Positions 1,392 to 39,312 of a stretch of DNA of 39,396 nucleotides are shown here, piece after piece. Each line of letters starts with the position of its first letter. The stretch's first letter is position 1. The notes below the pieces were generated by a model, which saw only the letters and a list, made by a program, of their open reading frames with translations, was not told the DNA's origin and did no database searches. A program made the position numbers and the translations under genes. This DNA comes from a virus, in IMG/VR virus record IMGVR_UViG_3300025818_000050, positions 1 through 39,396 of that record; one strand, 5' to 3'.

Positions 1392-2159
1392 TTACTTTCC
1401 GTTCATCAGTTCGTCGAAGGCTTTATCTACGTCACTAGTGGCATTTCCATATGCTACAGTTTCGCGAGAACGGGATTCGGCACTTTGGGTGCCTGAAAGT
1501 TGCTCATCGAGAATACTGTCGATCTCTTGTGGAGTGTGGCGCTCAAAGAGAGATCCGAAGTCAGGCATACGATCGAGGAGGGCAGGGATCGCTTCCGTAT
1601 CTTCGAGCAATGGGGACGTGTTTCGCCTCATCTTCATGTTAGTTTGAGGGTATGCGCCCGGTGTGGTGGGCTTAGTGTAAGTCAGCGTGATGTCAGTACC
1701 CTCACTGGCATCTGTGATGTCCCCATATTCGGGGTCGAGGATATATCCAAGAAGCAACTCGTAAGCCTTCTTGCCGTATCCATAAATCTTTACTCCCTCT
1801 TCCTCTCGTCCACGAACGAGTACTGGTGAGAAGTAACGTGCTCGGACAAACAGAGACTTCGCAAGTTGCTTGCTAGCGTCGTCGTTGTTCTCCGTCGCGT
1901 CCTTCCAGACCGAAGAGGCAAACTCGCAAATTGGGCAGTTCTCGCCAAAGTTGCGCTTGGGACAAAGAATGCCGCCCTTGTGCTCGCCCACGTTATAGTG
2001 GAAGAACATCTCCTTAAGCGGATCTCCATCTGAAGTCGGTACAATGCGGATGTCGGTGTCTCCCTCATCGGGCTTAAACCACACCGAATCGCCCTTGTCG
2101 GCTCCCTCACCACGAAGTGTGGCAAGTTTCTTTCTCATTAGTTCCATATTGATTGACAT
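1392..2159 (-). CDS. 32: gp32-like single-stranded DNA-binding protein
   Basis: A 255-residue T4 gp32-type protein that coats single-stranded DNA during replication and recombination. The start MSINMELMRKKLATLR resembles the basic N-terminal cooperativity arm. Next comes a zinc-binding ribbon with H54 or H60, C66, C75 and C78, spaced like the His-Cys-Cys-Cys site of T4 gp32. A basic and aromatic OB-fold-like core follows, with ARYFSPVLVRGREEEGVKIYGYGK near 107-130. A short acidic tail (DVDKAFDEL) ends the protein, as expected for partner binding. T4 gp32 is about 300 residues, so this is slightly compact. GGAG precedes the ATG. It sits with polymerase and probable recombinase genes, the expected partners. 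A hairpin in its leader could be regulatory. Confidence 0.88.
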   Translation of the reverse strand: MSINMELMRKKLATLRGEGADKGDSVWFKPDEGDTDIRIVPTSDGDPLKEMFFHYNVGEHKGGILCPKRNFGENCPICEFASSVWKDATENNDDASKQLAKSLFVRARYFSPVLVRGREEEGVKIYGYGKKAYELLLGYILDPEYGDITDASEGTDITLTYTKPTTPGAYPQTNMKMRRNTSPLLEDTEAIPALLDRMPDFGSLFERHTPQEIDSILDEQLSGTQSAESRSRETVAYGNATSDVDKAFDELMNGK

Positions 2160-2214: not shown

Positions 2215-3081
2215 TCACTCTTGTTCTAGCCTGTCAAGAGTATTTTGTTGATTTTGTATTGCGTTAGTATGGGCAACGCAGAACCCAAAGTCTGGTAAGT
2301 GTGTCTCGTAGATTGCATACGAAATCTTGCGGTAAGCATTCCGAGGCTTAGTTTTCAAAATGTCTACCAACTTCTTATGCAATCCTTTTTCCTTTTCTAA
2401 TCTTTCTTCATTTATACACATATAATAACATAATTCTCTCTCCGCGTCAAGGTCAAAAAGCCATTTTTCTTCAAGTTTCTTCATACTCAAAATTGAAACA
2501 GATCGTATCTTGTTGATTTCCTGTGGTCTTGAAACATTGCCGACATGAGGCTCTGTGTGCTCAAAGTAGTTGAGATAATGCACGCTTGAGAAGATCGTCT
2601 CGTTTAGCATATCATAGTAGTTTTTAAGGTTTATATTTTCAAGGACTCTCTCGATCATTTCGTTTGAAATTATAGTGAGAGAGCGAAACAAGCCGGAACG
2701 TGCGTATTCTTGCAGAATGCCGTATGTGGCGTTTTCTACAAGCCTTGGAACACCCGTTAACAACTCAATATCAGGCTTGATGTAAAATACATCCAACTCC
2801 TTATCTTTTATTTGTTCAAGGATGCCGAGAGAGTAGATAGAACTCATAGATGAACCTACGACAAAGACTTGAACCCGATCTTTTATTTTCTTGAAAAAAG
2901 TTTTTAAGTTCGGGACGTTGTTTTCGTATTCTTCTGGTGTTCCGTAAGTCTCTAGCTTGTATTCGTTCTTTTCTGTGCCTTCTAGGCTGCTGCCCAACTT
3001 ATACGTATCGTATTGAGGCAGAGAGTCAAACCTACTAGCAATAGCAGACCCAGCGTTACCGATCCCAACTATTGAAATCAT
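2215..3081 (-). CDS. Divergent tubulin/FtsZ-like protein (degenerate GTP loop)
   Basis: A 288-residue protein that I read as a remote FtsZ/tubulin relative. The start ISIVGIGNAGSAIASRF parallels the FtsZ T1 segment (IKVIGVGGGGGNAV). Residues 70-95 (VQVFVVGSSMSS then a helix) sit where FtsZ has VFIxxGMGGGTGTG. DVFYIKPDIELLTGVPRL (97-114) parallels the VxVVTKPFxFEGxxR segment. LFRSLTIISNEMIERVL then INLKNYYDMLNETIF (131-164) parallels the helix and strand reading 'VDSLITIPNDKLL...ISLLDAFGAANDVL'. The signature glycines are replaced by Ser/Met/Ile, so ordinary GTP hydrolysis is doubtful. The alternative is an NAD-type Rossmann protein, because GIGNAG also fits GxGxxG. Its ATG overlaps the polymerase stop (ATGA), implying coupled translation. 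Confidence 0.5.
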   Translation of the reverse strand: MISIVGIGNAGSAIASRFDSLPQYDTYKLGSSLEGTEKNEYKLETYGTPEEYENNVPNLKTFFKKIKDRVQVFVVGSSMSSIYSLGILEQIKDKELDVFYIKPDIELLTGVPRLVENATYGILQEYARSGLFRSLTIISNEMIERVLENINLKNYYDMLNETIFSSVHYLNYFEHTEPHVGNVSRPQEINKIRSVSILSMKKLEEKWLFDLDAERELCYYMCINEERLEKEKGLHKKLVDILKTKPRNAYRKISYAIYETHLPDFGFCVAHTNAIQNQQNTLDRLEQE

Positions 3082-4262
3082 ACGTTCAGATCCTCTAACT
3101 CGTAGTAGTTCTTTCCAGCCTTTAAATTAACCATAAACTTGTCGAGTTTGTTTTGAGCAAATACTTCCTTGATCTCTGGTATCATTTCTCTGTCTTCGTC
3201 TGATAAGTCGATGACCAACTCGTCATGAACGATATGAGATATGAAACTCTTCTTACCACTAAGAAGTTTATCTATTGTTACTGCTCTTTCCAAGACTATA
3301 TCAGATGTCGTGCTTTGAATTAAATAATTTAGTGCTTTTCTCTGCTCTACTTTTATCTCCCTACCGAGGGGCGTCTTGACGGCTTCTCCATCATAATACT
3401 TTTTAAGGACGCCATCCTTATCATACACACCCGTCTTGATATCAATGGAGATCGGATCATAAAGCCAAGCGAAGAACCTTGTTTTTGCTTCTTCTCTGCT
3501 GGTTCCTGCTTCAAATAGATGATGACAGTTCCAGTCATGAACATCAAGTTGTGGCTGGGTTTCACCAGACAAAGCCAACAGCGTTCTAACTTCTGCTCCG
3601 TTGTAGTCTAAGGACAAAAACCAGTCGTTGTGGGGATGGACGATCTTTCGGAGGTCTTTCTTCATCGTCAATATTGGGAAAGAGTCCTTGTTGGTCGTCA
3701 AGCGTCCCGTGACTGTGCCGTAGATGTTGTAGTCTATGTAACTGCCGACACTTAAAATTCTCTGCAACTCGTTTCTGTTCATTGTCCGCGTAAACAGCGA
3801 CTTGCTGTTAGATATATCAATATTCAGCTTCTGGTGCCTAAGTTTTTGTGTGAGTTTTGCTATATCGCACATAAACTCATAGTTTTCTGGCTTTTCGTAT
3901 GTTTCAAACACGTGTTGAGTGATCTTGTTTTTGATCTCGCAAAACTGGATCAGCGAGTCTTGCGGAATAAGGTCAAAAATGCAGTGCTCGTTGAAGTCGA
4001 TCTTGGCGATCTGAAATGACTTGTAAAATGCCGACATCTTGCGTCTGGAGCCTTCATATTCCTTTTGCAGATGTTCTGGGCATACTTCTCCGAGCGACTG
4101 GCCGTTGCAAATAAGCCAAGCGTAGTCGATGTTGTCGTCAGAAATAAAGCCGCCGGGGCGCCAAGTGCGATCAAGCCCGTCTGGGATATCTTGGAAGTAT
4201 AGCCTTCCGTCTTTATATACTCCGACACATTCTGTTTTGTCATCAAGTGTTTGAAAGTACAT
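3078..4262 (-). CDS. Family A DNA polymerase, polymerase domain only
   Basis: A 394-residue DNA polymerase I-type catalytic domain. GTVTGRLT (182-189) marks the primer-grip region. Motif A is SLDYNGAEVR with catalytic D219. Motif B keeps R256, K260, F264 and Y268 in the RxxxKxxxFxxxY spacing, although the usual Gly after Tyr is Asp. The LIQSTTSDI helix is at 314-322, and motif C is VHDE with D347. The first 110 or so residues match neither a 5' nuclease nor a 3'-5' proofreading exonuclease and contain no DxE pair. The protein is much shorter than complete phage family A polymerases (usually 550-900 residues), yet all catalytic residues are intact. Proofreading would need a separate protein. 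It starts 20 bases inside the preceding structural gene, with GAGAGGG upstream. Confidence 0.9.
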   Translation of the reverse strand: MYFQTLDDKTECVGVYKDGRLYFQDIPDGLDRTWRPGGFISDDNIDYAWLICNGQSLGEVCPEHLQKEYEGSRRKMSAFYKSFQIAKIDFNEHCIFDLIPQDSLIQFCEIKNKITQHVFETYEKPENYEFMCDIAKLTQKLRHQKLNIDISNSKSLFTRTMNRNELQRILSVGSYIDYNIYGTVTGRLTTNKDSFPILTMKKDLRKIVHPHNDWFLSLDYNGAEVRTLLALSGETQPQLDVHDWNCHHLFEAGTSREEAKTRFFAWLYDPISIDIKTGVYDKDGVLKKYYDGEAVKTPLGREIKVEQRKALNYLIQSTTSDIVLERAVTIDKLLSGKKSFISHIVHDELVIDLSDEDREMIPEIKEVFAQNKLDKFMVNLKAGKNYYELEDLNV

Positions 4263-5469
4263 TTACCCTCTCTTGTTCTGATACTTTAACACGATAGATC
4301 AAGTCTGTCAAGGAACCGCTGTTATTGTACGTCTCGGCTATCAGTTTTTCAAAAACGGCGATCACTTTGCTTTCGGGGGCGTTATTGAACATCTGGCTAC
4401 AGTCCCTTTGCAGATTTTCTTTTTGCATTTCGTTGAGATTGACTTCTTTTTCTTCCATAAGCCTAATCTTCATATATAATTTCAAAAAGTCTGCTTTGCT
4501 GAAAGTTTCCATAAGCGTTTCCATGGTGTAATTTACAGGAGTTACGATTCTTGATATTACGTTTCCATTTTGGCAGTATTCTTTTTCCACATATTCGTTT
4601 TTTATTTCATTATACATTGCAAGAAATAAATTAGCAAAATTTTCATAAAATGTAATGTGCGCCGGCATATAATTAAACGCCAAAACAACATCAGTACTTA
4701 ATCTACCATATCTTCTAGCGTATTGAATCATCTCCGGTGACCCAAGATCGGCTACAAGGCGCCAGGGATTGTTGGCGTCCACCAAAAAACCATAACTCCT
4801 ACAAGCATTTAGGTAAAACTCCCAGTTTGGGCTGTTTTTGAATTTTTCAATCTTTTGCTCATCGTTACTATAGTCCAAAGATGCAATATTTATTACCAAA
4901 CCTGTGGCTTCCATCGTGCATCGGCGGCTTTTTATGAAGGCTGGGTATGAAATAGGTCCGATATTCATCACATCTTCTAATATTGCCTCAAAATGAGTTA
5001 TAAATTCTTGAAAATTTTTAAAATTGAGTTCTCGATCCGTGAAAATATCAATTATAAAATTTTTGATACTTCTAAAATAATCACTGTACTGTTTTCTTGG
5101 GCTTTCGTATGCTTTATTGGCTTCCAAAGTAGTCAAATACTGGTCATTTGCTGAAATCTGTCCCGACATAACTTTGTTTCTAAATTGTGCATTTAAATCG
5201 TTAAATGCATCTGCAACAAAATCCATTGCTTGGAAGCCATTCGCATCTGCTTTGTTTGTAACTGCTAGATTCTTAAGCGAGGTTGCATTTAAATTTATTT
5301 CAATCGGCGTATAGTTTCGACTGACGCGACCATAGAGGTATTTTTCGGCAAACAAAAAGTTTATTAAATTAGTGTACTCGGCACTGACCATATCACTTTC
5401 ATAAATCAATCTTTTATCAAAAAGTTCTATGGTGCTTTCGTTATTGCTTCTTTTATAAAAAGTAGACAT
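4243..5469 (-). CDS. Unrecognised protein, probably virion structural or baseplate
   Basis: A 408-residue soluble protein with no signal or membrane segment. It is rich in aromatic residues and Asn, mixed alpha/beta, and the central part (about 165-255) looks strongly structured: ATGLVINIASLDYSND, then NWEFYLNACRSYGFLVD and NNPWRLVADLGSPEM. I do not recognise a domain. Position argues for a tail or baseplate component, since it directly follows the large hub-like gene with an 11-base gap, and the polymerase gene starts inside its 3' end. The DNA is visibly richer in A and T than the capsid and sheath genes. A replication role is less likely but cannot be excluded. Confidence 0.75.
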   Translation of the reverse strand: MSTFYKRSNNESTIELFDKRLIYESDMVSAEYTNLINFLFAEKYLYGRVSRNYTPIEINLNATSLKNLAVTNKADANGFQAMDFVADAFNDLNAQFRNKVMSGQISANDQYLTTLEANKAYESPRKQYSDYFRSIKNFIIDIFTDRELNFKNFQEFITHFEAILEDVMNIGPISYPAFIKSRRCTMEATGLVINIASLDYSNDEQKIEKFKNSPNWEFYLNACRSYGFLVDANNPWRLVADLGSPEMIQYARRYGRLSTDVVLAFNYMPAHITFYENFANLFLAMYNEIKNEYVEKEYCQNGNVISRIVTPVNYTMETLMETFSKADFLKLYMKIRLMEEKEVNLNEMQKENLQRDCSQMFNNAPESKVIAVFEKLIAETYNNSGSLTDLIYRVKVSEQERVNVLSNT

Positions 5470-5480
5470 TATTTAATTCC

Positions 5481-8400
5481 TTATGTTTGCTGTTGTCCGA
5501 CCTGATCTATTTGAGCGCGCGCTTCTAGCACTAATTTGCACACAGAGTTAGTTTGCTCAGTGGCGCCACATTTTCGCATTGAGGACTGACTTGTTTGATC
5601 TTCTAGCTTTTCGCCATCCGGCGGACGTGGAGACTTCATAATACCATTTAGCCAAATGCACTGTAGTTGTGTTGTTCTTTCGCCTTCGGCTATTCTATGA
5701 GACGCTTTGGTTACCATGTAATAGCCGCCTACACCATAACGAGTAATCTCAAACCTATCAATCGATTGATTTTTATCATAGTCGTCGTGCTTGGTTTCGT
5801 ATTCTCCAGTGCCCAGATCTGGTGCAAAGCCTCTAGGATCGACAAATATGATCGTGCCTGGATAAACACTTGGATACAAGAACATATCGATGTTAGCATT
5901 ATAAATCTCTCTCAACTGCATTAGTCCATCATACCCTTCTTGTTCATATCTCATTTCTTTCAACATTGGTGTGGATGTTTTCTCTAATTTGATGTTTTTT
6001 ACAATTCCTGATGATTGCCCAAGAACATAGTGGTTAATACCAGCCACTTGATCATCGCCTCTATCGGCAGTCATGGTGTTAGTTGGCGAACTTCTACCAG
6101 CATAATAAACCATCCAATTTTTTTGTTTTGCATGCCCACCGTTTCCGGAAAGTGCGAAGGCACGATCTCCCTGAACGTTTAAAATGGAATCGTGCGTAGA
6201 GTCTGGATCTCGCACATTGCTCCTAGCCGAAGAACACCACATATCAATGACTTTGTCTGCTGGTGCGTTTTCATTTTGCTTTTTGATAAGTTCAGATATT
6301 TCGTCATTATCAGATTTAGGATCTCCGTATGATACCACTGTTGTGCTGTGGAACTGGACTGGTTGTGTTGTTTTTACGCCGCCGCATGTTTTGTCGTTTA
6401 AAAAGACCGAGACGTAATTTTTAATGAATGCGTCTATAAAACTAGCCAAGTTATAACTTCTTCTATCTTTGGTGAGCATCTTATCAGCCATCCACTCGGA
6501 AAAGTATTTTACAGATATCGGAATCTCGCCTATAGAAACGTGTGTGTATTCGTTGTTGTTAGCAGGATTTCTAATTTCTATTGGACCAAGCAAGACTCTC
6601 AATTTTTTAAAGTTCTCAATTGCTCTTTTTAAGTTTTCTTTTTCTAACTTTATTATTCTTTCATCTGATTCTTTTTTATATTCTTCCCCAAGTTTGTTTA
6701 ATACCTGCTCATACGCCGGAAAAGAAGAATCTATACCTTCCAATATTATATCTATTAAATCATATAAAAAGAACATTGTGACTTGTCTGTGTGTTGCCGA
6801 ACTGATTGCCTTGTTGGCTGTAGATGAGATGTCTGAGTCTTGGTCTAGTTGTTTTTCAATATCATCTATTTTTCTTTTTATATCTTGTTGTGCTTCGGGT
6901 CTTGTTTCTGTTCCTAATTTATTTTGTAGTGCTGCTAATTCGTTTCTAACCGACTCTTCATTTAAAATAACATTTTCTGAATTATAAAAGGGAGGCATAT
7001 AAGCATTGGACATTGCTGTGTTTAGTTCCTCGTAAGGAATATTGTAGTAATAAACTTTATCTGCTTTGAAGAGTTTTGTAAGCAAAATCTTCATATTATC
7101 AGTTTTTAGTTTTCTAATTGCGTTTGCATCTTCTTGCTCTTCGGATGGTTTTTGATTTGCCTCTTTTCTACGTGCCGACTTTATCTTTTTCTCAATTTTG
7201 TTTTTAAAAATATCTCTAGTGATTTTATTATCGTCGGAGAATATATCGAAATATGATGCGTCAAAATAATCTTGGATGTATGCCTGATAGTCTATGTTTA
7301 AAAGCACTCTACCATCGTCTTCAAAACTAAACTCATGAATGGTCGGAATCAAATCATATGAAGAATAACACGCTGAAACTGCTTTTTGATATTTTGTTCT
7401 TTCGGTTTCCGAAAGTTTTCTTGATATATTCAGATTATCGGGAATTGCATAGCCAACGACTGCTTTAAGTCTAAAATTAACATCATAAGAGCCATCATAA
7501 GAAACATCAGCAGAATCTGTAAAACACTCAGCCGGATCGTTTTCTTTTTTATCTTTTGTTGTACCTGTCCTCAACGCCAAGTCGGCATATTTGAAAGTCC
7601 CTCCAGGGGTACGTCGATCTTTTAAAATTTCAGAGAAGGTTGTCGCATGTATAGATAACCTTGCTGATATCATTCTCTTTGCCGCAAATGGATCGCTACC
7701 TTCAAGCGTCCACTCAAAACTCTTTAAACCAATACCGTAGCCACGAGCGTTTTTGTTCATAAATGCTTTTTTAATTTCGTCTTGTGTGGTGGTGCCGGGA
7801 AATGTTATTTCTATTTCGTCTTGTGTTTTTCCTTCTTCATCCATTATCACTTTGTAAAGCCTGACTGTTGGCTGCAAACTTGATAATATATAACCCGGAA
7901 TATCAAACATGCCCGAAACTGACGTTGGCTGCGTTAAACGATTCATAAACGCATAAGGATCTCCGCCGCACATTATGGAGCAGTTCTTTTTATTGTCTCC
8001 AACATATGGAAGTATGGTTCTTTTGGGAAAAGTGGAAGAGTTTCTTATTTCTATTAAACTGTATACATTCTTTTGGATATAGCACTGTTCTCTAAATGAA
8101 AGATTTAGATAATTTTCGTTTGGGGCAAGGGCTGCTGCGATGGCTGCGGCTGCTTGTTCTGCTGCTTCTGCTGACCGGCGAGCGCGGGCATCTGCCGTGG
8201 CTCTTACTCCTGCTAAACCAGCCCTAACTAATCCACCGAAGGCTGGTCCAAAGATCGCACCTGCGGCGGCGGAAGCGACACGGGTTACTAATCCTATGTT
8301 TTCTTGGGTCCCTACTTTCTTGTCTGCCTCCTCTTGTATTTTTGCTTGTATTGTATGATATTCAAGAATAGCCTTCTGTGCAGCGCCATTGGCTTCTTCT

Positions 8401-23756: not shown

Positions 23757-26120
23757 TTATTCTTGATCAAATTCCCATACACAAGTAATGTTTACACGAC
23801 CCGGAGTATTAAAGAGTTCGTAGCGGATACCAATAACATCGCCGGCAGCAAATAATGCTGAGCCAGTAAACGGGAAGGTGGTGGTTGTTGACGCGACTGG
23901 ACCGGTCAAGCTTGATACTTCAACAATAGAACCATCGTCAACTGCATCTTGTCCATCAACTGCAACATAAAGAGTTAAACTTGAGGTGCCTCCGGATTGG
24001 TCATTGCTGCTTCTAAGAAATATTTTCTTAAGAGTTCCATTAAAAGGCGCAATCATTTGGTGCCTATAGTCAGCAGTTGGGGTGTCTACTTCAGTAAGAT
24101 CATAGAATGGTATAAAGCCTGTGTGTGGTGCACCACCACTATCAACAAACCCATGGGTTGTATACTCAAGAATACTGCCTCTTACAGAGCCCGTGACAGT
24201 TAAGCTGCCTGATATTGATGTAGAGCCTGAAACCGCAAGCGTATGTGTTGGTGCGCTAGTATTAATACCTACTCTATCTGCTGCTCCGCTAACATATAAC
24301 ATATGTGTATTGTTATCGCTCTCAACACGGAAGTCCATTAAAGAATCGGAGCCCTCATTGATAACAACTTCTGGATTAATGCTACCGGGCAGTGTAGATA
24401 AGCCTGTAATACGTATAGCTTCTTTTGATGCTCCGCCGTCGTTTGTTTTGAAAACTATGCTTTTATTTAACACAAAATTTTCAATAATGACATTGTCACT
24501 AGTATTAACACCAATACTAGCTGCGGGTGTTGCGCCGTCGTTCAATATTAGCGTTGGTGTGTTTGAGCCTATTATAACCTCTCCAGAACCACTGACTTGG
24601 AATACAGGGTTGTGGCTGTCTGACTGAGCGTGGATAAGTTTTTCAATGTCTGTTCCGACAAAGTTCGCAACACCGTCGAATGCTGCACCACCAACTGTAA
24701 TTTGACCAGAACCAGAAACACCGAGAGCAATGCGACCACCATCGGCGTCTGCTGCTTGCATTAGAGCAAGTGTCTTATTACTTGTATCCGAAGGTCTGAT
24801 AGCAAGCATACCATCTAATGCACCGTAGCCAAATTTGTCGCCAATTGCTATATGCGGTTGAGATCCTGTGACGTGAATACCAAGAGAACTGCTGATAAAT
24901 GTTCCTGCGGATAAGCCAACAGATGCGCTTATCGATCCGCTAGCAAGAACGTCGGAGCCAATTGTTGCATTACCATCAACGTGTAGAGTGCTCGATCCAG
25001 AGTAAGCACCTACGTTTGTGATACCATTTGCCGTTAAGGACTCCATTATTGTTGAGCCTGAAACTGTAAGATCGTTTCCTAGTATTGTTGCTCCGACAAA
25101 CTGTGCTGTTCCAGAACCGGAAATGTTTCCTTGAACAAATGTATCGTCTCTTAAACTAATATCGTATCCCAAGTTACCAACGTGAATAACGTCATCAGAG
25201 TGAACTCCAATTAACGATACGTTAGAGTTGGTGGTTGAGTAGCCTTGGAAGAACTGGTTGTTCAATCGAATATTGACGTTACCGCTTACGGCTGTGGTTC
25301 CGTTAACTTCGAGTGTTGAGTCAAGCGGAATGGTATTAATACCAACTCTATTTGCAGACGACGAAACGTATATTGTGTTGTCTTGCACAGAACAATCACT
25401 ATCATTTCCGACAAACAAGTAGCCTTTATCTAAGTTTGGGGTTGCGTTAGATCTACCAGCACCGCCAACTTTAATTTGGTTATCGCCACCTCCACCATTG
25501 CGAACAACCTGACCAATATTTTGTAATAAATTATTTGAACCAGTTGGTCGAGTTGTTGTCAAGGATCCAGAAACGCCACCTGAGCCCGTTTGAACAAACA
25601 CAGGATCTCCTTCGGCAAATGTTTCGCCAGGAAATAATGTGCTTAAATTCAGGTTTCCAATCGACCCAAAAGTGACAACTTGAACAGAAGCGCCTTGTGC
25701 TGCGTTGGAGCCAGCAAGACCAAAAGCAGGCATTTTGGTGGCGTCGTCCGCTGCTGCAAGAGCCACTGTTGGTGTTTGTCCCGCTACACCTTTAATATAA
25801 ACTACTTGACCTCTCGATATTGAATCACCTTCGTCATTAACAGCGTCAAAACGAATGGCACCCTCAACATCACCAACTACCTCTTCGACATATAATCTGC
25901 TCCATTCTAAGTCTACAGACCCAAGATCATTAGTTAGTGTAACACTTGGGACAATATTCACTGACGACGTAATCGCAGAACCAGAAACAATAAATCTTTG
26001 TTGACCATTTGTTTTGATTGCTACAAAATCGTTTTCAAAGTCTATCTGAACGTCGTTTGGGTCACCCTCGTACTGGATATCTCCGGTATGCTGGGAACCT
26101 TTCTGATTATTATATGCCAT
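23757..26120 (-). CDS. Fibre-like structural protein with Gly/Ser repeats (MAY family)
   Basis: A 787-residue protein starting MAYNNQKG, as do three other genes in this block. The N-terminal 200 residues are beta-rich and include a region like a phage stalk domain (SRGQVVYIKGVAGQTPTVALAAADDA). The long middle (about 250-670) is made of short beta repeats of the type 'VSGSGxxxV' and 'RVGINTxxPxxTLxVSGSTSISGS', typical of triple-stranded beta fibres. The last 120 residues form a separate jelly-roll-like domain (GFIPFYDLTEVDTPTADYRH, FNGTLKKIFLRSS, LTLYVAVDG, FAAGDVIGIRYELF) unlike the ends of its neighbours. I infer a tail fibre or capsid fibre. Receptor binding would be at that C-terminal domain, but this is unproven. 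Confidence 0.75.
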   Translation of the reverse strand: MAYNNQKGSQHTGDIQYEGDPNDVQIDFENDFVAIKTNGQQRFIVSGSAITSSVNIVPSVTLTNDLGSVDLEWSRLYVEEVVGDVEGAIRFDAVNDEGDSISRGQVVYIKGVAGQTPTVALAAADDATKMPAFGLAGSNAAQGASVQVVTFGSIGNLNLSTLFPGETFAEGDPVFVQTGSGGVSGSLTTTRPTGSNNLLQNIGQVVRNGGGGDNQIKVGGAGRSNATPNLDKGYLFVGNDSDCSVQDNTIYVSSSANRVGINTIPLDSTLEVNGTTAVSGNVNIRLNNQFFQGYSTTNSNVSLIGVHSDDVIHVGNLGYDISLRDDTFVQGNISGSGTAQFVGATILGNDLTVSGSTIMESLTANGITNVGAYSGSSTLHVDGNATIGSDVLASGSISASVGLSAGTFISSSLGIHVTGSQPHIAIGDKFGYGALDGMLAIRPSDTSNKTLALMQAADADGGRIALGVSGSGQITVGGAAFDGVANFVGTDIEKLIHAQSDSHNPVFQVSGSGEVIIGSNTPTLILNDGATPAASIGVNTSDNVIIENFVLNKSIVFKTNDGGASKEAIRITGLSTLPGSINPEVVINEGSDSLMDFRVESDNNTHMLYVSGAADRVGINTSAPTHTLAVSGSTSISGSLTVTGSVRGSILEYTTHGFVDSGGAPHTGFIPFYDLTEVDTPTADYRHQMIAPFNGTLKKIFLRSSNDQSGGTSSLTLYVAVDGQDAVDDGSIVEVSSLTGPVASTTTTFPFTGSALFAAGDVIGIRYELFNTPGRVNITCVWEFDQE

Positions 26121-26137
26121 TTATTACTTCCTTTTAT

Positions 26138-27265
26138 TTATTTGCCTTTTGAGCTTATAACCCACCAAGCCACTCCATCGGACTGAAGAGAGCGGGACGA
26201 GTGGTTTGTTTTTATAATCATTTCATCTGTCAAGTCTATTGCACCCTCTACGGCTTTTAAAACTACTGGGTATGTACCTTTCTTTGACTCGCCACTGGTG
26301 GTCATCTTAACGTTGATAATTCTTCCGGCATTGTTACGCGCAGGAGGCAGCATCACAGTAACTGGGCTGCTGTTCGTGTCACACAGTAACGTATAGTCTT
26401 CACTTTGCGCTTCATAAATTCTGCTAGCAATTGTCTTTATGTTATTATAAACAGCGCCATTACAATAAAGCGACTTGTTTACTTTGAAAGAGCTAGCGTC
26501 AACCTTTCCATCAACCTTTAAAGTATCAGATGCTAAGTCATATGAGAGTTTTGAAGTTGCCGTAAAGCCTCGTTTGTCTTTTATTTGCACGTCCCCAATG
26601 CCGCCGGCAGCTTGGTGTATTTTGTGTGATACATAACTTTCATAGAAATTCAAAAGTGTTGTGCTTGTTGTGTTTTTGTGAGATATGTCCGACACTAACA
26701 GCAGATCATTATCACTTAAGTTTTGACCGCTGATGTTTATTTTGTCCATATTCTCTAAGTCAATTGCTAACTTTGAGCCTTTAACCGTTAAACCGCCGTT
26801 TGTAGATAAGTCAATTGATAATCCATCCTCTTCAGCGAGTATACCTGCACCGCAGTTAACTTGTACGTTTCCGTGTACAGAATGTAGTCCACTTCCAATG
26901 CGAATAGAGTCAGCATGAACTTTGCCTGTAATTTTATCTGCTGGAATATCGACGAGGTTTGCTGCTGAGCCATGAAACTCTTCTGCGTGAATGGTGTTTG
27001 TTTTTAATGTCTCACCATCAAAAGTGAGTTTGTCGCTTGCCCTTGCTGTGTTTTCGTCTTCAAACGTAAGTAAGGCACCCTTGCTTCCACCAACAATGTT
27101 TTTAATTGCCACATCTTTCATTGTTGCACAAGGACTTTGTGCATCTGTATCATAAAACACACTTGCGCTTATTGTATTTTTGAAGACTTTTACGCCATCT
27201 ATTTCTTGATCTCCGTATTGATCCACGGAGCCTTCAACTATTCCCTTGAGAACATTGTAAGCCAT
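26138..27265 (-). CDS. Fibre-like structural protein (MAY family)
   Basis: A 375-residue protein starting MAYNVLKGIVEGSVDQYGDQEIDGVKVF. The middle (about 50-260) is beta-rich with phrases such as ADKITGKVHADSIRIGSGLHSVHGNVQVNCGAG and GLTVKGSKLAIDLENMDKINISG. The C-terminus from about 290 (YEAQSEDYTLLC, SPVTVMLPPARNNAGRIINVKM, SDGVAWWVIS) matches the end domain of the genes at 30113, 31170 and 27605. In tail fibres of other phages this 'TLP...G....vk...iDG...l...g..W.v' end is a small beta tip. An ACTATTTA-related element (CCTATTTA) lies 18 bases upstream, followed by a GAGAGGA binding site. Function inferred. Confidence 0.72.
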   Translation of the reverse strand: MAYNVLKGIVEGSVDQYGDQEIDGVKVFKNTISASVFYDTDAQSPCATMKDVAIKNIVGGSKGALLTFEDENTARASDKLTFDGETLKTNTIHAEEFHGSAANLVDIPADKITGKVHADSIRIGSGLHSVHGNVQVNCGAGILAEEDGLSIDLSTNGGLTVKGSKLAIDLENMDKINISGQNLSDNDLLLVSDISHKNTTSTTLLNFYESYVSHKIHQAAGGIGDVQIKDKRGFTATSKLSYDLASDTLKVDGKVDASSFKVNKSLYCNGAVYNNIKTIASRIYEAQSEDYTLLCDTNSSPVTVMLPPARNNAGRIINVKMTTSGESKKGTYPVVLKAVEGAIDLTDEMIIKTNHSSRSLQSDGVAWWVISSKGK

Positions 27266-27283
27266 TTTATTTCCTCTCGTCTA

Positions 27284-27291
27284 TAAATAGG
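27284..27291 (-). promoter_or_regulatory. CCTATTTA promoter-like element (one mismatch)
   Basis: CCTATTTA on the coding strand, 18 bases before the start codon of the 375-residue fibre-like gene. It differs from the common form at the first base. Confidence 0.4.
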
Positions 27292-27522
27292 TTATAAATT
27301 CGTTTTATCTCTGATAATAAATGCGCCGTAATTAGTATGGAACTCCGGGTGATATTCAAACCCGTGTTCGTCTAGTATGCCGAATACGATCTCTCGCATC
27401 ATCTCGGAGTCACCTGTTATGATCTTCAGAGGAGCGTCGTTCATTAAAATAAAGTTTACAACTTTGTTTTCAACGTCTCGATGATATTCTCCGTGCAGAT
27501 CCAAAGTCTTGATATTAGTCAC
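27292..27522 (-). CDS. Smr-like mini-protein
   Basis: A 76-residue protein that looks like a reduced Smr (small MutS-related) domain. LDLHG at residues 7-11 is the family's first motif. IITGDSEMMREIVFGILDEHGF (34-55) lies where Smr has 'I.HGkGtG.Lr..v...L...', and GAFIIRD is the last strand. Smr domains bind and nick DNA or cleave RNA; the usual HGKG..G loop is shortened here to TGDS, so activity is uncertain. The start must lie before LDLHG, and the only codon is GTG at 27520-27522, without a ribosome binding site. Directly upstream are an ACTATTTA element (five-base gap) and a terminator. It stands alone among fibre genes and may be leaderless. Confidence 0.65.
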   Translation of the reverse strand: MTNIKTLDLHGEYHRDVENKVVNFILMNDAPLKIITGDSEMMREIVFGILDEHGFEYHPEFHTNYGAFIIRDKTNL

Positions 27523-27527
27523 AGATA

Positions 27528-27535
27528 TAAATAGT
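27528..27535 (-). promoter_or_regulatory. ACTATTTA promoter-like element before the Smr-like gene
   Basis: ACTATTTA on the coding strand, one base after the T run of the terminator and only five bases before the GTG start. If it acts as a -10-type element, the transcript would begin at or inside the start codon. Confidence 0.5.
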
Positions 27536-27536
27536 C

Positions 27537-27569
27537 AAAAAAAAGGATGCCCCCACAAGGAGGGCATCC
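27537..27569 (-). terminator. Intrinsic terminator after the 796-residue repeat protein gene
   Basis: GGATGCCC pairs with GGGCATCC, with two more inner G-C pairs, and eight T follow on the minus strand. It ends the transcript of the highly biased repeat-protein gene. Confidence 0.93.
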
Positions 27570-27583
27570 AGTAAATAAGACAA

Positions 27584-27612
27584 TCTTCTAGATTGTAAGC
27601 AATCTTAGAAGA
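27584..27612 (-). other. Second hairpin at the stop codon of the repeat protein gene
   Basis: TCTTCTAGATTG and CAATCTTAGAAGA form a twelve-base stem with one bulge and a four-base loop. The stem includes the TAA stop codon at 27605-27607. It precedes the terminator, giving a double 3' structure that may protect the mRNA from 3' exonucleases. Confidence 0.55.
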
Positions 27613-29995
27613 CGATCCAGACGTTGTTACCAACGTACTGCATAGCGATAGCAGCGCCATCGGACTCAAGTACAACACTTGCTTGACCATCAATGAGGTG
27701 CGAAGTGCCGCCGTCAACAGCAACGATAAGATCGTTACCACCGAGGGATGCTGGAGCCTTAACACGAACCACGTCACCGTTAGAAGGTGCAGATGGAAGA
27801 GTAAGGGTACGATCAGCAGAGAGAGTAACAGTACCGAAGTTCATACCCTCAACAAGAGTTGCGTTAGCATCAGCGAACGACTGGGTTACGCCAGCCTCTG
27901 TCGAGAGAACGCCGTTGGTTGCGGAAAGACCGGAACCAGCCATTGCAGCCACAAGGTCAGCGATGCTTTCCTTGCGAGAAGCGTTGCTGTCGTCAGCGTC
28001 CACGATAGCAATGCTATCAGCAGCCACATCAACAGTAGCAGCGGTCAACTCGTTGAGGTCAACATCGAGGTTACCAGAACCGTCTTGAGCAAGACCAACA
28101 CCAGCGACAGCAGGAGCAAGCATAGCGCCTGTAACACCGTCAGCCTTGATACGAAGAGTATCAGCGTTGATCTCGATAGACGAGTCGTCAACGTTCACAC
28201 TGAAGTCACCATCAGCGACAGCAAGACCGTCACCAGCGGTGAAGTGTGCGCGGACCTCAGCAGCCGAAGGACCAGTGTAAGTGATCACACCAGTTGAGTT
28301 GTCGTATGAGAGAGAGCCGTCGCCACCAGAGTCAGTTACAGAGATAGCAGCGCGAGCACGTGCATCAGTGAAGTAAAGGTTGGAACCTTCAGTAAGATCG
28401 CCAGTGTCCTTGGTTGCAAGAACGTCGTCCCATGAACCAGAGAATGCGACAGCGCTGATGCTGATCTCACCAGTTGCCGAAGCGTAGTCAACCATCTCAC
28501 CGCCCGAAAGGAGACCGCGAGCAGAACCACTGAAGAGAGCCTCGTCCATTGCGAAGTTACCGCTACCATCATAAGTGATGAAACGAGCAGCTTCCATGGT
28601 AAGAGCGTTGTGGACGCGAGCGTCAGTGTAGTAAAGGTTAGAGCCTTCAGCAAGATCGCCAGTATCAGCAGCAGCCATCTTAGCGTCCCAGCGGACATCA
28701 GCAGAAGCCGAGAACAAAGCAGCGTCGATTGCAACTTCGCCATCAGTGATGGTGATCATCTCGCCACCAGAGAAGTGGGCACGCACTTCAGCAGCACTTG
28801 GTCCAGTGTAAGTTAAAACACCTGTGCTGTTGTCGTAAGCCAACGATCCGTCACCGCCAGCGTCAGTAACACTGATAGCTTGACGAGCGCGGGCATCGGT
28901 GAAGTAAAGGTTAGAACCTTCAGCAAGATCACCAGTGTCGGCAGCAGCCATCTTAGCATCCCAACGAACATCAGCAGAAGCAGAGAAGACAGCAGCATCG
29001 ACTGCAATCTCACCCGAAGCAATGCTGATCATCTCACCTGCGGAGAAGTGAGCACGAACTTCAGCAGCGGATGGACCTGTGTAAGTGATAACGCCTGTGG
29101 AGTTATCGTATGCAAGGGAGCCATCACCACCAGCATCAGTCACGCTAATAGCTTGACGGGCGCGAGCGTCGGTGAAGTAAAGGTTGCTAGAACCCTCAGA
29201 AAGATCGTCAGTGTCTTTGGTTGCGAGGACGGCATCCCAAGAGCCAGAGAACTCAGCACCGTCGATAGAAACAACACCAGAAGAGATGTCGATCATCTCA
29301 CCACCAGAGAAGTGCGAACGGACAGCAGCAGCAGCCGAAGCATCGCCAACGATGTCGAGAGTAGAACCAGACATTGCAGCACCAACTACGCTAAGAACAC
29401 CAGTGCTGCTGTTGTAGCTAAGGATGTCAGCATCCTCGCTGATAGCAGCGCGAGCGCGAGCGTCGGTGTAGTAAAGGTTGCTAGAACCTTCAGCAAGATC
29501 ATCAGTGTCGTGAGTTGCAAGAACATCAGCGAACGAACCGGTGAACTCACCAACTTGAACGTAGTCTTGAGCAAGCTTAGCGTCAGAGATAGAGCCAGCA
29601 AGCATAGCATCGGTAATACCGAGAGCCTTGACTTGAAGTGTGTCGGCGCTGATCTCGATTGAAGAATCATCAACGTTAACTTGAAGTTGATCGGCGCTTT
29701 CGCTAAGACCGTTGCCTGCAACAGCAGCCATAAGGTCGCCAACTGCTTCTTTCTTCATGAGGCCATCGGCATCAAGGAAGTAAAGGCTGTCGGACTGTAC
29801 GTCGATAGCAGCATCAGCAACACCATCGAGCTTAACGGTACCGCCAATTTGCAAGTTACCGGAGCCAGAGAGCGCGCCATTGTCGCGATCTACAGTGAGA
29901 CGAATTGAACCATCGTCATCTTTAATAATAAGACCACCCTCTTGAGTAAGGGAGCCGCTCATGACGGCAGGTCCTAATTGAAATTTATAAGCCAT
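27605..29995 (-). CDS. Repeat-rich fibre-like protein, 796 aa (MAY family)
   Basis: A 796-residue structural protein starting MAYKFQLGPAVMSGS. Residues 163-616 hold five tandem copies (86-98 residues) built around DTxDLxEGSxNLYFTDARARxAIS, then SLxYDNSTGVITYTGPSAAEVRAHFSxGEM. The 'LYFTDARAR' phrase is widespread in phage tail fibres. Flanks are duplicated too: NVDDSSIEISADTLQVKALG (108-127) against NVDDSSIEINADTLRIKADG (601-620). The end (from about 728) is the shared tip: RTLTLPSAPSNGDVVRVKA, LIDGQASVVLESDGAAIAMQYVGNNVWIVF. Codons are strongly biased like the capsid gene, a GGAGGG site precedes the ATG, and hairpins lie at both mRNA ends, so I infer a very abundant virion protein. It is probably a fibre or decoration. 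Confidence 0.82.
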   Translation of the reverse strand: MAYKFQLGPAVMSGSLTQEGGLIIKDDDGSIRLTVDRDNGALSGSGNLQIGGTVKLDGVADAAIDVQSDSLYFLDADGLMKKEAVGDLMAAVAGNGLSESADQLQVNVDDSSIEISADTLQVKALGITDAMLAGSISDAKLAQDYVQVGEFTGSFADVLATHDTDDLAEGSSNLYYTDARARAAISEDADILSYNSSTGVLSVVGAAMSGSTLDIVGDASAAAAVRSHFSGGEMIDISSGVVSIDGAEFSGSWDAVLATKDTDDLSEGSSNLYFTDARARQAISVTDAGGDGSLAYDNSTGVITYTGPSAAEVRAHFSAGEMISIASGEIAVDAAVFSASADVRWDAKMAAADTGDLAEGSNLYFTDARARQAISVTDAGGDGSLAYDNSTGVLTYTGPSAAEVRAHFSGGEMITITDGEVAIDAALFSASADVRWDAKMAAADTGDLAEGSNLYYTDARVHNALTMEAARFITYDGSGNFAMDEALFSGSARGLLSGGEMVDYASATGEISISAVAFSGSWDDVLATKDTGDLTEGSNLYFTDARARAAISVTDSGGDGSLSYDNSTGVITYTGPSAAEVRAHFTAGDGLAVADGDFSVNVDDSSIEINADTLRIKADGVTGAMLAPAVAGVGLAQDGSGNLDVDLNELTAATVDVAADSIAIVDADDSNASRKESIADLVAAMAGSGLSATNGVLSTEAGVTQSFADANATLVEGMNFGTVTLSADRTLTLPSAPSNGDVVRVKAPASLGGNDLIVAVDGGTSHLIDGQASVVLESDGAAIAMQYVGNNVWIVF
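28148..29509 (-). repeat. Five tandem protein-coding repeats (about 260-295 bp each)
   Basis: Five in-frame copies inside the 796-residue gene at residues 163-260, 261-352, 353-443, 444-529 and 530-616. Copies two and three are the most alike, even at DNA level, and copy four is the most diverged and lacks the STGVITYTGPSAA segment. This fits expansion by unequal recombination. Confidence 0.85.
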
Positions 29996-30034
29996 TTTAA
30001 AAACCCTCCATTTATAGTTTTTTATGGTTTAGGC

Positions 30035-30079
30035 GGATAAGTAAACTTATCCAAATTCGATGCACGGAAGCCATGCATC
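30035..30079 (-). promoter_or_regulatory. Twin hairpins in the leader of the repeat protein mRNA
   Basis: Two inverted repeats in the 117-base gap before the 796-residue gene: an eight-base perfect stem at 30035-30052 (GGATAAGT / ACTTATCC) and an interrupted stem at 30059-30079 (GATGCA / TGCATC plus two inner pairs). They follow the ACTACTTA element and leave the GGAGGG binding site free. Such 5' stems often stabilise mRNA. Confidence 0.6.
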
Positions 30080-30084
30080 ACTAT

Positions 30085-30092
30085 TAAGTAGT
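30085..30092 (-). promoter_or_regulatory. ACTACTTA promoter-like element before the 796-residue gene
   Basis: ACTACTTA on the coding strand, 89 bases before the start codon, just upstream of the two leader hairpins. A transcript starting shortly after it would carry a hairpin at its 5' end. Confidence 0.5.
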
Positions 30093-30112
30093 ATGTTTTG
30101 GGTCTTAAATTT

Positions 30113-31150
30113 TTAGCAGATAAAGAATTTATCGGTGCCGTTACAATAAAGCTGGATCGATGCGAAAGGTGACTCTAAAATAACTGAATTTTGACCGTCA
30201 ATTAAATCTGAATCTGATACTTGAATTGTTATGTTATTTGTGTTCGCGGATCCGCCTTCATCTTTTACAACAAACGTTTGACCAGTCTCCAAAAGACTGG
30301 CGCTTGGTAGCGTCAAAGACACAGGGTTTTGTGATGTATCAACGCCAAGATAATAGTCTTGTGCGCTTAAAGAATAGTTTCCAGATACAAGACTTCTATT
30401 GTAAACTACGCCACCGTGTATCTTGATACAAGCAGCATTTAAGTCAAGCTGAAAACCATTATCCATATGGATGCCTTTGTTTACTAAGTGCATATGACCA
30501 ATTTGCATACCCTGCTCTAAAGTGCCTGAGCCATATTGCAAATGACCATCACGGACGCTTAGTCTATCTGTTCCAAAGTGGATTGTGCTGCTTGAAATAT
30601 ATAACGATCCCCAAGGATTTGATGGTGAACCAAGGTTATAAATATCTGCTTGTGCTGGTATCAGATCTCCTTCTACTGTTCCTGTTCCAAACATCTCCAA
30701 GTTACCAGTCAAATATAAGTTTGAAGAACTAAACAGCAAGTTTGCTGAGCCAGTGAAGTCCCCATCAACATAATCATGATACTGAATAGAGTGTGCTGGT
30801 CCTTCAGCAGCAACATTATCGGCTCTAATATTAGTTAAATTGCTTCCGTCTCCATAATATACGGATGCAGATATACCGATGCTAGCACTAATATCGCCTA
30901 CAACATTTAATGTATCACCGTCAAACGTAAGGTTGGTTTCGCACGTTATTGTATTTGCATCACCATTAACGTTAGTTAAAAGCGAGTTATTTGTTGCGTT
31001 ATAAACGCGAGGCACATTGATGATGTTTGCGCCATCAGAAGTCGATAAATTGCCGGAAACAATTGGAACAATAACGTTTCCATTATGATCCTGTCTGGGG
31101 AGGAAATGGTTTGGCTGTAAGACTGTGCCAGATAGATTGTTGTAAGCCAT
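30113..31150 (-). CDS. Fibre-like structural protein (MAY family)
   Basis: A 345-residue protein starting MAYNNLSGTVLQPNHFLPRQ. The middle has fibre-type beta phrases (NLTFDGDTLNVVGDISASIGISASVYYGDGSNLTNI, about 70-110; LFSSSNLYLTGNLEMFGTGTVEGDL, about 143-165). The end domain (from about 262: NYSLSAQDYYLGV, PVSLTLPSASLLETGQTFVVKDEGG, LIDGQNSVILESPFASIQLYCNGTDKFFIC) is shared with neighbouring genes. 'YGDGSNLTNI' is a common tail-fibre motif. I infer a fibre or appendage protein. The gene is 19 bases downstream of the next fibre-like gene and has a TTAAAGGAG site before the ATG. Confidence 0.74.
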   Translation of the reverse strand: MAYNNLSGTVLQPNHFLPRQDHNGNVIVPIVSGNLSTSDGANIINVPRVYNATNNSLLTNVNGDANTITCETNLTFDGDTLNVVGDISASIGISASVYYGDGSNLTNIRADNVAAEGPAHSIQYHDYVDGDFTGSANLLFSSSNLYLTGNLEMFGTGTVEGDLIPAQADIYNLGSPSNPWGSLYISSSTIHFGTDRLSVRDGHLQYGSGTLEQGMQIGHMHLVNKGIHMDNGFQLDLNAACIKIHGGVVYNRSLVSGNYSLSAQDYYLGVDTSQNPVSLTLPSASLLETGQTFVVKDEGGSANTNNITIQVSDSDLIDGQNSVILESPFASIQLYCNGTDKFFIC

Positions 31151-31169
31151 TTGTCGTCTCCTTTAATAA

Positions 31170-31865
31170 TTAGAAGACAAACCAATTGCTTCCATTTGAA
31201 TACAAACTAATTGCAGGCATTGTACCTGTTAAGATATAAGTTGGATCACCATCAAATGTATATGTATCGTCCACAGAGCGAGTTAACGTAATGTTTGAAA
31301 GTCCGCGGGCGGTCGTTACTTCATCTTTAATAACCAATATCGCTCCAGCAGAAAAGTCAGCAGGACTTGGTATGGTAACATATACATTTGCTGGCGGAGT
31401 TACAACAGCATTTATACCAAGTACGTGATCTGAAGTAGACGCAGTGTGGTGGCTGCTTGTTACATTTGTGTAGTTACCGCCGAAGCCTTTAACAAAAGTT
31501 TGTTGCGAATAACTACTGGCTGATAAGATGGCTGTTGTGCCTGACCAGATCTCCAAACTTCCTGTACGCGAGTGAATATCATCTATCGTGTCGCCAAAGA
31601 ATGTTGAGCCTGTGGCGTCGATAATTGTTATATCTCGATATTGAAAAACACTGGCGCTGACTGTGCCGGTGACTATCAAGTTACCCGATAAGACCGCCGT
31701 ATTAGTGGTGTAGTTATACGTAAAGTCAAGAGAACCGCTGGACACACCTGTGCCCGATGCCGTCATAAATTGTACGGAATAAATTGGTCCTTCAGAACCT
31801 TCTCCGCCTCCGCCACCGCCACCGGAGCCGGAACAGTTTACATATGCCCAGCCAAAGTTAGCCAT
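31170..31865 (-). CDS. Fibre-like structural protein with poly-Gly hinge
   Basis: A 231-residue protein. The N-terminus MANFGWAYVNCSG is followed by a run of Gly (residues 14-21), a probable flexible hinge. Residues 28-110 are beta-rich (GPIYSVQFMTASGTGVSSGS, LIVTGTVSASVFQYRDITIID). The last 85 residues form the shared tip (VYVTIPSPADFSAGAILVIKDE, ILTGTMPAISLYSNGSNWFVF). It differs from the other members in its N-terminus, so it may attach to a different partner. The start codon lies four bases after the stop of the upstream decoration-like gene, whose end supplies GGAG. Confidence 0.72.
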   Translation of the reverse strand: MANFGWAYVNCSGSGGGGGGGEGSEGPIYSVQFMTASGTGVSSGSLDFTYNYTTNTAVLSGNLIVTGTVSASVFQYRDITIIDATGSTFFGDTIDDIHSRTGSLEIWSGTTAILSASSYSQQTFVKGFGGNYTNVTSSHHTASTSDHVLGINAVVTPPANVYVTIPSPADFSAGAILVIKDEVTTARGLSNITLTRSVDDTYTFDGDPTYILTGTMPAISLYSNGSNWFVF

Positions 31866-37728: not shown

Positions 37729-39312
37729 TCACTTTATAATCCAACTGTATTGGTCGTATATGTTTTTAGCTTCATTCATTTTATCAAAAATGTTATCTTT
37801 CTTGTAGCCTGTTTGACCTTTAACTTGTGTATTCATGGTAGTTTTCGAGCTTATTATAGCATCAGCAAAAGCCTTTTGATAATTTAATTCTCGGGCGCTT
37901 GTTTGTAATGCTGTATCTCTAACCCAGCAAGCAATTGCGAGAGCCATGATGAGGTCATCATGGTATCCTTTCATTGCTTGTGGTTTACCATTCCTCCAAA
38001 TAAAAGTCTTCATCTCGTTAATAGTGCGAGTAGAATATATGGTAATTAGTTTATTTCTGATAAACTCCTCTAATTTCGCGACGATAAGAGGTCGGGTCTT
38101 CATAGAGGTAGTAAAACCCGGAACAGCAGAGTTTCTTACCTCTGCTTGATGTTGTTCTATATACTCGTGTGTTGACTTGATAGAGTGATATAAGTTTGGA
38201 TACTCGTGGTCAATTAATTTTGTTAAGACAGAAAAGCCGATGTTATTGTTCTCAACAACAAGCATAGCATTTCCAAACTCTCTTCCAACTTGATTTAATA
38301 TATCAGCATACATGTCTAGCGTTGGTTTGCCTTGATATTCTCCGACAACTTCTAGCGTTTCTAGTTTAACAATGTGGAATGTGGAGTGGTCTGCTCCATC
38401 ACCACGAGCAACGTCTGCAACCATTAGATAATTGCAAGTAGGATCGAACTCTTCCCATATCCAAAAGTTTCTATCAAAGCCAGTTCTGTATTTTGGTTCT
38501 TTGATTTTTGTGAGCAGCCATTCCATGCATTCGGGGTCAATGACGGTTTCGCCTGACGTATTGAAGTTGCATTCTAACTCTTGCGCTATTTGACGCTTGG
38601 ACATGTTCTTGGTTTCTTTTTTATACCAAGCCTCGTCTCTGTCGGGATGAACATCCCAAGGTAACGTTGTTAGATGAAAATTGTTAGCGCCTGCTTCTGC
38701 GTCGGTGCAAGTTTTGTGAAACCAGTTACCAACACCGTTTGGCGTTGAAAGCGCAATGCAGCGACCACCAGTAGACAGCGTGGGATACAAACCAGTCCAC
38801 AACTCTTCAAGACCTTCAATGTGTGCTGCCTCATCAAGCACGAGCAAAGACAGTGCTTCGGAACGACCAGCATCGCCAGAGGTCGATGCCGCCTTAATAG
38901 ATGAGCCATTAGACAACTCAAAAGACGTGCGGTTATCAACAGAGATAGTAGCAATACGAATCCACTGCGGCAAGTTCTTCATAATGTTCTTGACTTTCTT
39001 GACCAAGTTACCAGCAGTAGCAAACTTGGTAGCCATAACAAGAATAGACTTATCTCTGTGAAAAAGCATAAGCCAAGTAATGTATCCAGCAGTAATAGTG
39101 GAAATACCTAACTGACGTGCTTTCAAGATAACATTAAAACGATGATCGTTGAAGTCTTGAAGCAGGACATCTTGGAAGTCATATGTATCAAATAAGATAA
39201 GCCCGTGCATCGGGTGAGATATACGGGCATAGGTTTTTAGAAAGTAAACGGGATCTTTACCGCACTTGAGTATTTCTTTGACTTGTTGTTTTCTGTCTAA
39301 CTGGAAACTCAT
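37729..39312 (-). CDS. 17: Terminase large subunit (gp17-like)
   Basis: A 527-residue packaging ATPase and nuclease. The ATPase half has the Walker A-like KARQLGIST (64-72), the Walker B LLVLDE (156-161) and the coupling motif ALST (187-190). The RNase H-like nuclease half has its acidic residues at D300 (LMVADVARG), E354 (LVVENN) and D452/D453 (HDDLIMALA). The adaptor and linker elements typical of T4 gp17 are shorter; gp17 has 610 residues. The start ATG overlaps the stop of the upstream gene (ATGA). It cuts concatemeric DNA and drives it into the prohead through the portal encoded next. Confidence 0.96.
   Translation of the reverse strand: MSFQLDRKQQVKEILKCGKDPVYFLKTYARISHPMHGLILFDTYDFQDVLLQDFNDHRFNVILKARQLGISTITAGYITWLMLFHRDKSILVMATKFATAGNLVKKVKNIMKNLPQWIRIATISVDNRTSFELSNGSSIKAASTSGDAGRSEALSLLVLDEAAHIEGLEELWTGLYPTLSTGGRCIALSTPNGVGNWFHKTCTDAEAGANNFHLTTLPWDVHPDRDEAWYKKETKNMSKRQIAQELECNFNTSGETVIDPECMEWLLTKIKEPKYRTGFDRNFWIWEEFDPTCNYLMVADVARGDGADHSTFHIVKLETLEVVGEYQGKPTLDMYADILNQVGREFGNAMLVVENNNIGFSVLTKLIDHEYPNLYHSIKSTHEYIEQHQAEVRNSAVPGFTTSMKTRPLIVAKLEEFIRNKLITIYSTRTINEMKTFIWRNGKPQAMKGYHDDLIMALAIACWVRDTALQTSARELNYQKAFADAIISSKTTMNTQVKGQTGYKKDNIFDKMNEAKNIYDQYSWIIK

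Follow-up and report, generated by a model that had tools for sequence, protein, structure and literature searches.

A gene for a protein predicted to have the tubulin/FtsZ fold is carried by many uncultured T4-like phages between their DNA polymerase and single-strand DNA-binding protein genes. The window, i.e. the whole stretch of DNA that was analysed, is a virus record of 39,396 bases with its long ORFs mostly on the minus strand. The gene, here called D, was found at 2215..3081 on that strand, with an ATG start, and encodes a pseudo-tubulin of 288 aa that lacks the usual GTPase motifs. By structure prediction, D belongs to a new family with this fold. Its motifs and gene neighbourhood suggest that it serves the phage replisome as a non-enzymatic, non-hydrolysing accessory or scaffold, a role to which we give a probability of about 0.5.

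The gene upstream of D encodes a polA-like family A DNA polymerase of 394 aa (3078..4262, minus strand; PF00476, E 1.8e-15), and the polymerase stop codon and the ATG of D overlap by 4 bp. Downstream lies a gp32-like single-strand DNA-binding protein gene (ssb; 1392..2159, minus strand; PF08804, E 2e-16), with a Dam-type adenine methylase nearby (82-996). Read along the minus strand, the gene order is terminase large subunit (37729..39312, minus strand), a region that by eye resembles structural genes, an ORF of 408 aa and unknown family on the polymerase side of D, polA, D, ssb and methylase. The window polymerase is small, and Pfam shows a DNA_pol_A match only, with no exonuclease domain. 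Fibre-like ORFs follow one another at 23757-31865; their lengths are very unequal, their repeats and C-terminal stretches look alike by eye, and they are perhaps a diversifying adhesin cluster.

Relatives were collected by a sequence query with D (72 loci), by a profile query (at least 559 relatives in one collection, the best 80 of which were used) and by querying with the member that was the most distant at that point (53 loci, including that member's own contig). From 184 locus entries, in which some contigs occur twice, 177 with an ORF and 172 full-length copies were obtained, and 127 distinct D proteins were aligned. D is under purifying selection, with a median dN/dS of about 0.08 from the 5 of 595 pairs that were usable (dS < 1.5). 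These relatives, the dN/dS values and the strictly kept neighbours described below confirm the minus-strand ORF at 2215-3081 as a genuine gene, beyond chance. One copy, L217 (G056 43205-44044), has a single in-frame TGA, which may be a sequencing error or the mark of a broken copy. A scan of genome contigs for D returned no relative, and hence no host.

Profiles from Pfam, PHROGs, NCBIfam, PADLOC and the PDB were compared with window D, its relatives and the alignments A1 or A4. No significant tubulin match was obtained, and the backing that the first-pass annotation had looked for in PF00091 and PDB profiles did not materialise. PF00091 was absent among the 13 families matched at E 1 by the 35 members of A1, and two of ten divergent members matched it below cut-off (E 0.044-0.059). 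Over all weak D matches its E values ranged from 0.0045 (the best) to 0.06, located at the T1 loop; three relatives had such non-significant matches at the T1 glycines. A tail ORF in the window, unrelated to D, matched PF00091 by chance at E 0.0059; since this is equally good, the weak D matches are no evidence on their own. Alignment with hhalign of the D family to the FtsZ-like family encoded by the same phages (see below) covered 28-31 columns only, at T1, with E 0.06-0.11. Neither protein had a clear PHROG match. Weak NAD-binding matches were equally common in D (10 of the 35 members matched F420_oxidored, with E 0.03 at best). F420 oxidoreductase, GARS_N, cysteine synthase, uteroglobin and TrkA_N were set aside as the identity of D, all being weak, fragment-only matches. 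As no profile joins D to the tubulins above chance, homology rests on the predicted fold and the order of motifs.

Two AlphaFold2 models were compared with known structures. The first was made for window D with A1, an alignment of 35 natural sequences, and yielded five models with pLDDT of 65 to 88, the best having pLDDT 88 and pTM 0.88. The second (pLDDT 93.5, pTM 0.91) was headed by L230, a relative 35% identical to window D, and its alignment shares members with the first. In Foldseek searches of the PDB, all 50 matches listed for window D were FtsZ or TubZ (best E 3.1e-12), with the FtsZ entries 1w58 and 1w59 at the top, and the 50 listed for the L230-headed model were FtsZ, TubZ or tubulin. 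DALI-like re-alignment (VIA) of the Foldseek matches placed archaeal CetZ (3zid) first for both models, with Z 23.4, rmsd 3.4 and 265 aligned residues for window D and Z 25.6, rmsd 2.7 and 258 aligned residues for the L230-headed model. TubZ (4ei7) scored Z 22.4 and 24.2, respectively, and eukaryotic tubulins about 21 with window D. CetZ binds nucleotide and forms filaments, and the PDB titles of the CetZ matches name a GTPgS or GDP ligand and a protofilament. The top DALI-like rows for window D span residues 1-288; thus both domains are covered. The first-pass annotation had called D a divergent relative of tubulin and FtsZ from a segment order that followed FtsZ over residues 1-170, and had proposed a comparison of structure models. 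Both models support it, with CetZ, TubZ, FtsZ and tubulin matched along the chain, and the tubulin-like order of secondary-structure elements runs beyond residue 170 to the C-terminus.

The core helix H7 was assigned by DSSP to residues 152-175 of the window D model (2557..2628, minus strand). It ends at 175 in this model and at 173 in the L230-headed one, and the long strand that follows starts at 192 and 191, respectively. Helix H8 is absent between H7 and this strand in both predicted structures. A GTPase-type N-terminal domain, H7 and a C-terminal domain, i.e. the tubulin/FtsZ fold, are thus predicted for D, as well supported as prediction allows. Against a library of viral structures, the best five matches of the window D model were FtsZ, cell division, tubulin-like or nameless proteins, and the matches included a tubulin-like protein of an Edwardsiella phage. 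Rossmann-type epimerases and dehydratases appeared only from rank 6, at E 8.8e-4 and weaker, over about half of the chain. Among the 50 PDB matches listed per model, there was no dehydrogenase or other Rossmann fold without a tubulin C-terminal domain, the outcome that the first-pass annotation had named as contrary to its claim. A protein unrelated to tubulin, with a Rossmann-type fold that converged on a similar outline, would suit the failure of the sequence profiles and the weak matches to F420_oxidored, TrkA_N and other NAD-binding families. It is very improbable in view of the whole-chain matches of two models, which include both domains and the core helix H7, and of a GGGTVSG at the T4 position of L230.

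All segments on which the first-pass annotation relied are present in the translation of D: VGIGNAG at residues 5-11, VFVVG at 72-76, GSSMSSIYS at 76-84, IKPDIELLTGVPRL at 101-114 and SLTIISNEMIERVLENINLKNYYDMLNETI at 134-163. The T1 glycine loop (VGIGNAGS, residues 5-12; 3046..3069, minus strand) is kept across the family, with Gly6 in 126/127 and Gly8 in 127/127 proteins. Asn140, at the position of the T6-loop Asn (2662..2664, minus strand), and Asn160 in H7 (2602-2604, minus strand) are each found in 127/127. D thus has a T6 Asn and a polar H7 residue at guanine-contact positions, placed by order and spacing; we take these to be the positions of FtsZ N166 and D187, which contact guanine in FtsZ and tubulin. 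Residues invariant or nearly so (126 or 127 of 127) further include Leu85, Pro103, Gln124, Tyr126, Arg128, Ser129 and His168.

FtsZ proteins carry the motifs GGGTG[T/S]G and NxDxx[D/E] (PMC12583498, excerpt). In window D the former is replaced at the T4 position by GSSMSSIYS (2830..2856, minus strand; column counts), and GGGTG, GGGTG[T/S]G and the relaxed GGGTG[TS][GS] were each found in 0/127 D proteins. Columns spaced as G-x-G-x-x-[ST]-[GASC] occur in 25/127, and the GGGTVSG of L230 is the D form nearest to the GTP-binding signature; T4 in the distant clades looks like an eroded signature, to judge from these sequences. Residues 176-191 of window D (2509..2556, minus strand), where FtsZ has the T7 loop and H8, contain neither NxDxx[D/E] nor Dxx[D/E], nor a helix. 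Over the columns of residues 171-200, after H7, NxDxx[D/E] was found in 0/127 proteins and the looser Dxx[D/E] in 22/127, window D not among them. Fifteen of these 22 have an FDxx[D/E]-type motif and belong to the L235 clade (L235, L237, L239 and kin), e.g. FDSKE at the T7 place of L239, compared with FDSKD in the phage's FtsZ-like protein. It is possible that this motif is a remnant of the hydrolysis motif. The T7 motif is lost in window D, but its loss is incomplete across the family. The strict motifs are a harsh yardstick, as the phage's own FtsZ-like protein reads GGGTGSS at T4 and has strict GGGTG[TS]G in 0/22 sequences and NxDxx[DE] anywhere in 6/22; GGGTG[TS][GS] and SFDSxD are present in 22/22.

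The proposal that D has lost or changed its nucleotide pocket thus stands in part: the T4 signature is gone and there is no T7 motif, but D retains the T1 glycines and an Asn at each of two guanine-contact positions. The retention of the T1 glycines, Asn140 and Asn160 in 126-127 of 127 proteins, the T4-like spacing in 25 and the Dxx[D/E] after H7 in 22, FDSKE among them, would also agree with an autonomous GTP-binding filament or switch protein with a changed pocket and interface, in which hydrolysis is maybe kept in some clades. We consider this rather unlikely, as GGGTG is missing from all 127 proteins, H8 is absent from the models, and window D has mostly Ser at T4 and no Dxx[D/E].

Neighbours were counted over 122 D loci; since near-identical loci occur among them, these counts lack independence. 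Where the contig had room, polA was upstream of D in 109/109 loci, ssb downstream in 117/117 and the 408-aa gene upstream in 86/86; the methylase downstream is variable (24/92 relatives with room). Of the 115 loci that have a polA match, 113 show the 4-bp overlap of polA stop and D start, and D is therefore probably translationally coupled to the polymerase. The coupling to a DNA polymerase noted in the first-pass annotation is shown as gene linkage. Among the 53 divergent loci, ssb was downstream in 50/50 and polA no more than 400 bp upstream in 40/45. The five misses are four members of the L270 clade (L270, L272, L273 and L275), with polA about 670 bp upstream, and L245, without a polA match. 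In L272 an orotidine-5-phosphate decarboxylase-like gene (5330-6004; PF00215, E 2.2e-11) lies between polA and D.

Small host-attack genes usually lie in variable early regions. This counts against D as an antagonist of host FtsZ, a dead tubulin that would poison or block division filaments, and the fixed position between polA and ssb across clades likewise suits a role in replication better than one in host takeover. D does have the same fold as the target that it would attack, and some phage products, such as lambda Kil, are known to interfere with host FtsZ (PMC9372555, excerpt); on balance an antagonist is improbable.

A second, near-canonical FtsZ-like gene, which encodes a protein of 379 aa, is carried by the same phages; in L280 (5376-6509) it was located 4.0 kb past the window end at 39396. 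Its product matches PF00091 above cut-off and TIGR00065 (ftsZ) at E 4.7e-14, below cut-off. The gene comes after a gp47-gp46-like gene (named by eye, with a weak SMC_N match); the gp46-like and FtsZ-like genes overlap by 4 bp in L125 and L191 and are separated by 10 bp in L126 and 206 bp in L124. The window's last bases are common to six contigs at 98 to 100% identity: three contain the FtsZ-like gene in full, 4.0 to 4.3 kb past the window end, one contains part of it and two end earlier. Phages nearly identical to that of the window thus carry the FtsZ-like gene, about 41 kb from D when the distances are summed. A tblastn search with the FtsZ-like protein (query L124) gave no match in INPHARED or the plasmid set.

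Altogether 80 FtsZ-like loci were collected, of which 29 are in contigs of at least 40 kb; 28 of these were searched for D (L137, which has about 18 kb of downstream sequence, was left out). D was found in 9/28, in each case on the strand of the FtsZ-like gene and 39.1 to 42.5 kb downstream of it. The other 19 contigs stop within 37.4 kb of the FtsZ-like gene start, so that 9/9 contigs with room (at least 39 kb) have D. The converse search of 48 D-bearing records, mostly too short, found the FtsZ-like gene in 3. The gene is absent, by PF00091 and its own profile, from G073 (156,945 bp) and G074 (57,734 bp), which belong to divergent D clades; both have gp46 and the terminase, and other genes fill the interval between them. 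The FtsZ-like gene as an obligate partner of D was consequently dropped. D is the more widespread of the two, and polA and ssb are its constant company.

Divergence was compared over 28 pairs from eight of the nine contigs in which both genes occur, G056 being left out. Median pairwise identity was 60.7% for D, 54.2% for polA, 76.1% for ssb and 91.7% for the FtsZ-like protein, the last ranging from 86.9 to 98.4%. D thus diverges about as fast as the polymerase. These data bear on a two-tubulin cytoskeleton, in which D would be the unequal partner of the FtsZ-like protein and would tune its filament as a cap, nucleator or co-polymer subunit. The joint occurrence of the genes on one strand in all nine contigs with room, and in contigs that extend the window, speaks for such a partner; G073 and G074, with other genes in the slot after gp46/47, the mismatch in pace between the two proteins, and the loss of T4, T7 and H8 in window D, by which both usual longitudinal faces are altered, speak against it. 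The partnership is accordingly doubtful.

The phage tubulins known so far are GTPases that assemble into filaments and move or centre DNA. PhuZ and phiKZ TubZ resemble D in being phage-encoded proteins of the tubulin fold, but they build canonical protofilaments and have a catalytic Asp in their T7 loop (PMC3678025, excerpt), whereas window D is without the T4 and T7 motifs and H8 and lies in a polymerase operon. The TubZ of plasmids and phages (type III partition) is close to D in structure, as the Z scores of 4ei7 show; it is a filament-forming GTPase that segregates DNA with partner proteins (PMC7762940, excerpt), whereas D is without the usual GTPase motifs and has polA and ssb as neighbours. 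With FtsZ, D shares the order of elements T1-T4-T5-T6-H7-C-domain, but neither GGGTG[T/S]G nor NxDxx[D/E]. The phages' own FtsZ-like protein is of the same fold class as D; its gene adjoins gp46/47 and that of D adjoins polA, and hhalign joins the two proteins at T1 only.

Viral population 18 of AdsorpSeq, an uncultured circular phage contig, is likewise an environmental phage with an FtsZ homolog; a nucleus-forming protein was not found in it, and a degenerate second protein of the tubulin fold is not mentioned in the excerpt available (PMC7452251). Jumbo phages have been described with two kinds of FtsZ/tubulin (PMC7824862, excerpt) and PhiKZ-related marine jumbo phages with a tubulin (PMC9123017, excerpt); the Far-T4 phages are given no FtsZ in the excerpted main text of PMC4360716. 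Excerpts of PMC9871819, PMC5628999 and PMC3349469 were also included in the comparison. Among the open-licence PMC matches listed, none described a phage whose polymerase operon contains a degenerate tubulin.

A tblastn search of INPHARED with D gave no match. Flavobacterium phage immuto (48%) and Microcystis phage Mel-JY01 (44.5%) are the closest isolates when compared by terminase. In immuto the interval from polA to ssb holds two ORFs, of 151 and 171 aa; in Mel-JY01, ORFs of 147, 110 and 428 aa come between a polymerase identified by eye (no Pfam match) and ssb. The post-polymerase ORFs of 147-151 aa in immuto and Mel-JY01 (L288 1346-1801 and L286 2313-2756) look alike by eye and are another occupant of the D slot. 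Their identification as RegA was dropped, being unsupported by Pfam and PHROGs. PF00091 was not found in either isolate, and a search there for D, run without a positive control, was also empty. The T4-type clamp domain PF02916, for which D might stand in, had no match in 9 records, again without a positive control.

The replisome accessory is the reading that we prefer. The D family is predicted to keep the GTPase-type N-terminal domain, H7 and the C-terminal domain of the tubulin fold. Because window D has lost the T4 signature loop, the T7 motif and H8, it should neither hydrolyse GTP nor polymerise into the usual head-to-tail filament. Its two invariant Asn at guanine-contact positions suggest that binding of a guanine nucleotide, as a switch or a structural ligand, may have been retained. 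The order polA-D-ssb is kept almost throughout the family, and together with the 4-bp overlap this makes an accessory of the replisome the most likely function; D would be translationally coupled to the small family A polymerase and would act as an accessory or scaffold. Less firmly, in the clade of the window D may also link the replication complex to FtsZ-like filaments. A stronger form of this link, in which a two-tubulin T4-like lineage would combine a near-canonical FtsZ-like filament with a catalytically dead tubulin as an integral replisome subunit that tethers or positions replicating DNA on the filament, is put forward as a tentative possibility. If true, this would, as far as we know, be the first case in which a DNA replication machine includes a protein of the tubulin fold.

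The D family suggests that a tubulin fold lost its GTPase signature and became a fixture of the replication operon in a lineage of uncultured phages that is widely sampled. The gene order over about 41 kb can serve to recognise a group of phages that have two tubulin-fold genes. Should D bind the polymerase, a cytoskeletal protein would have become part of the replisome, and D would offer a concrete handle on how replication is organised in phages other than the nucleus-forming ones.
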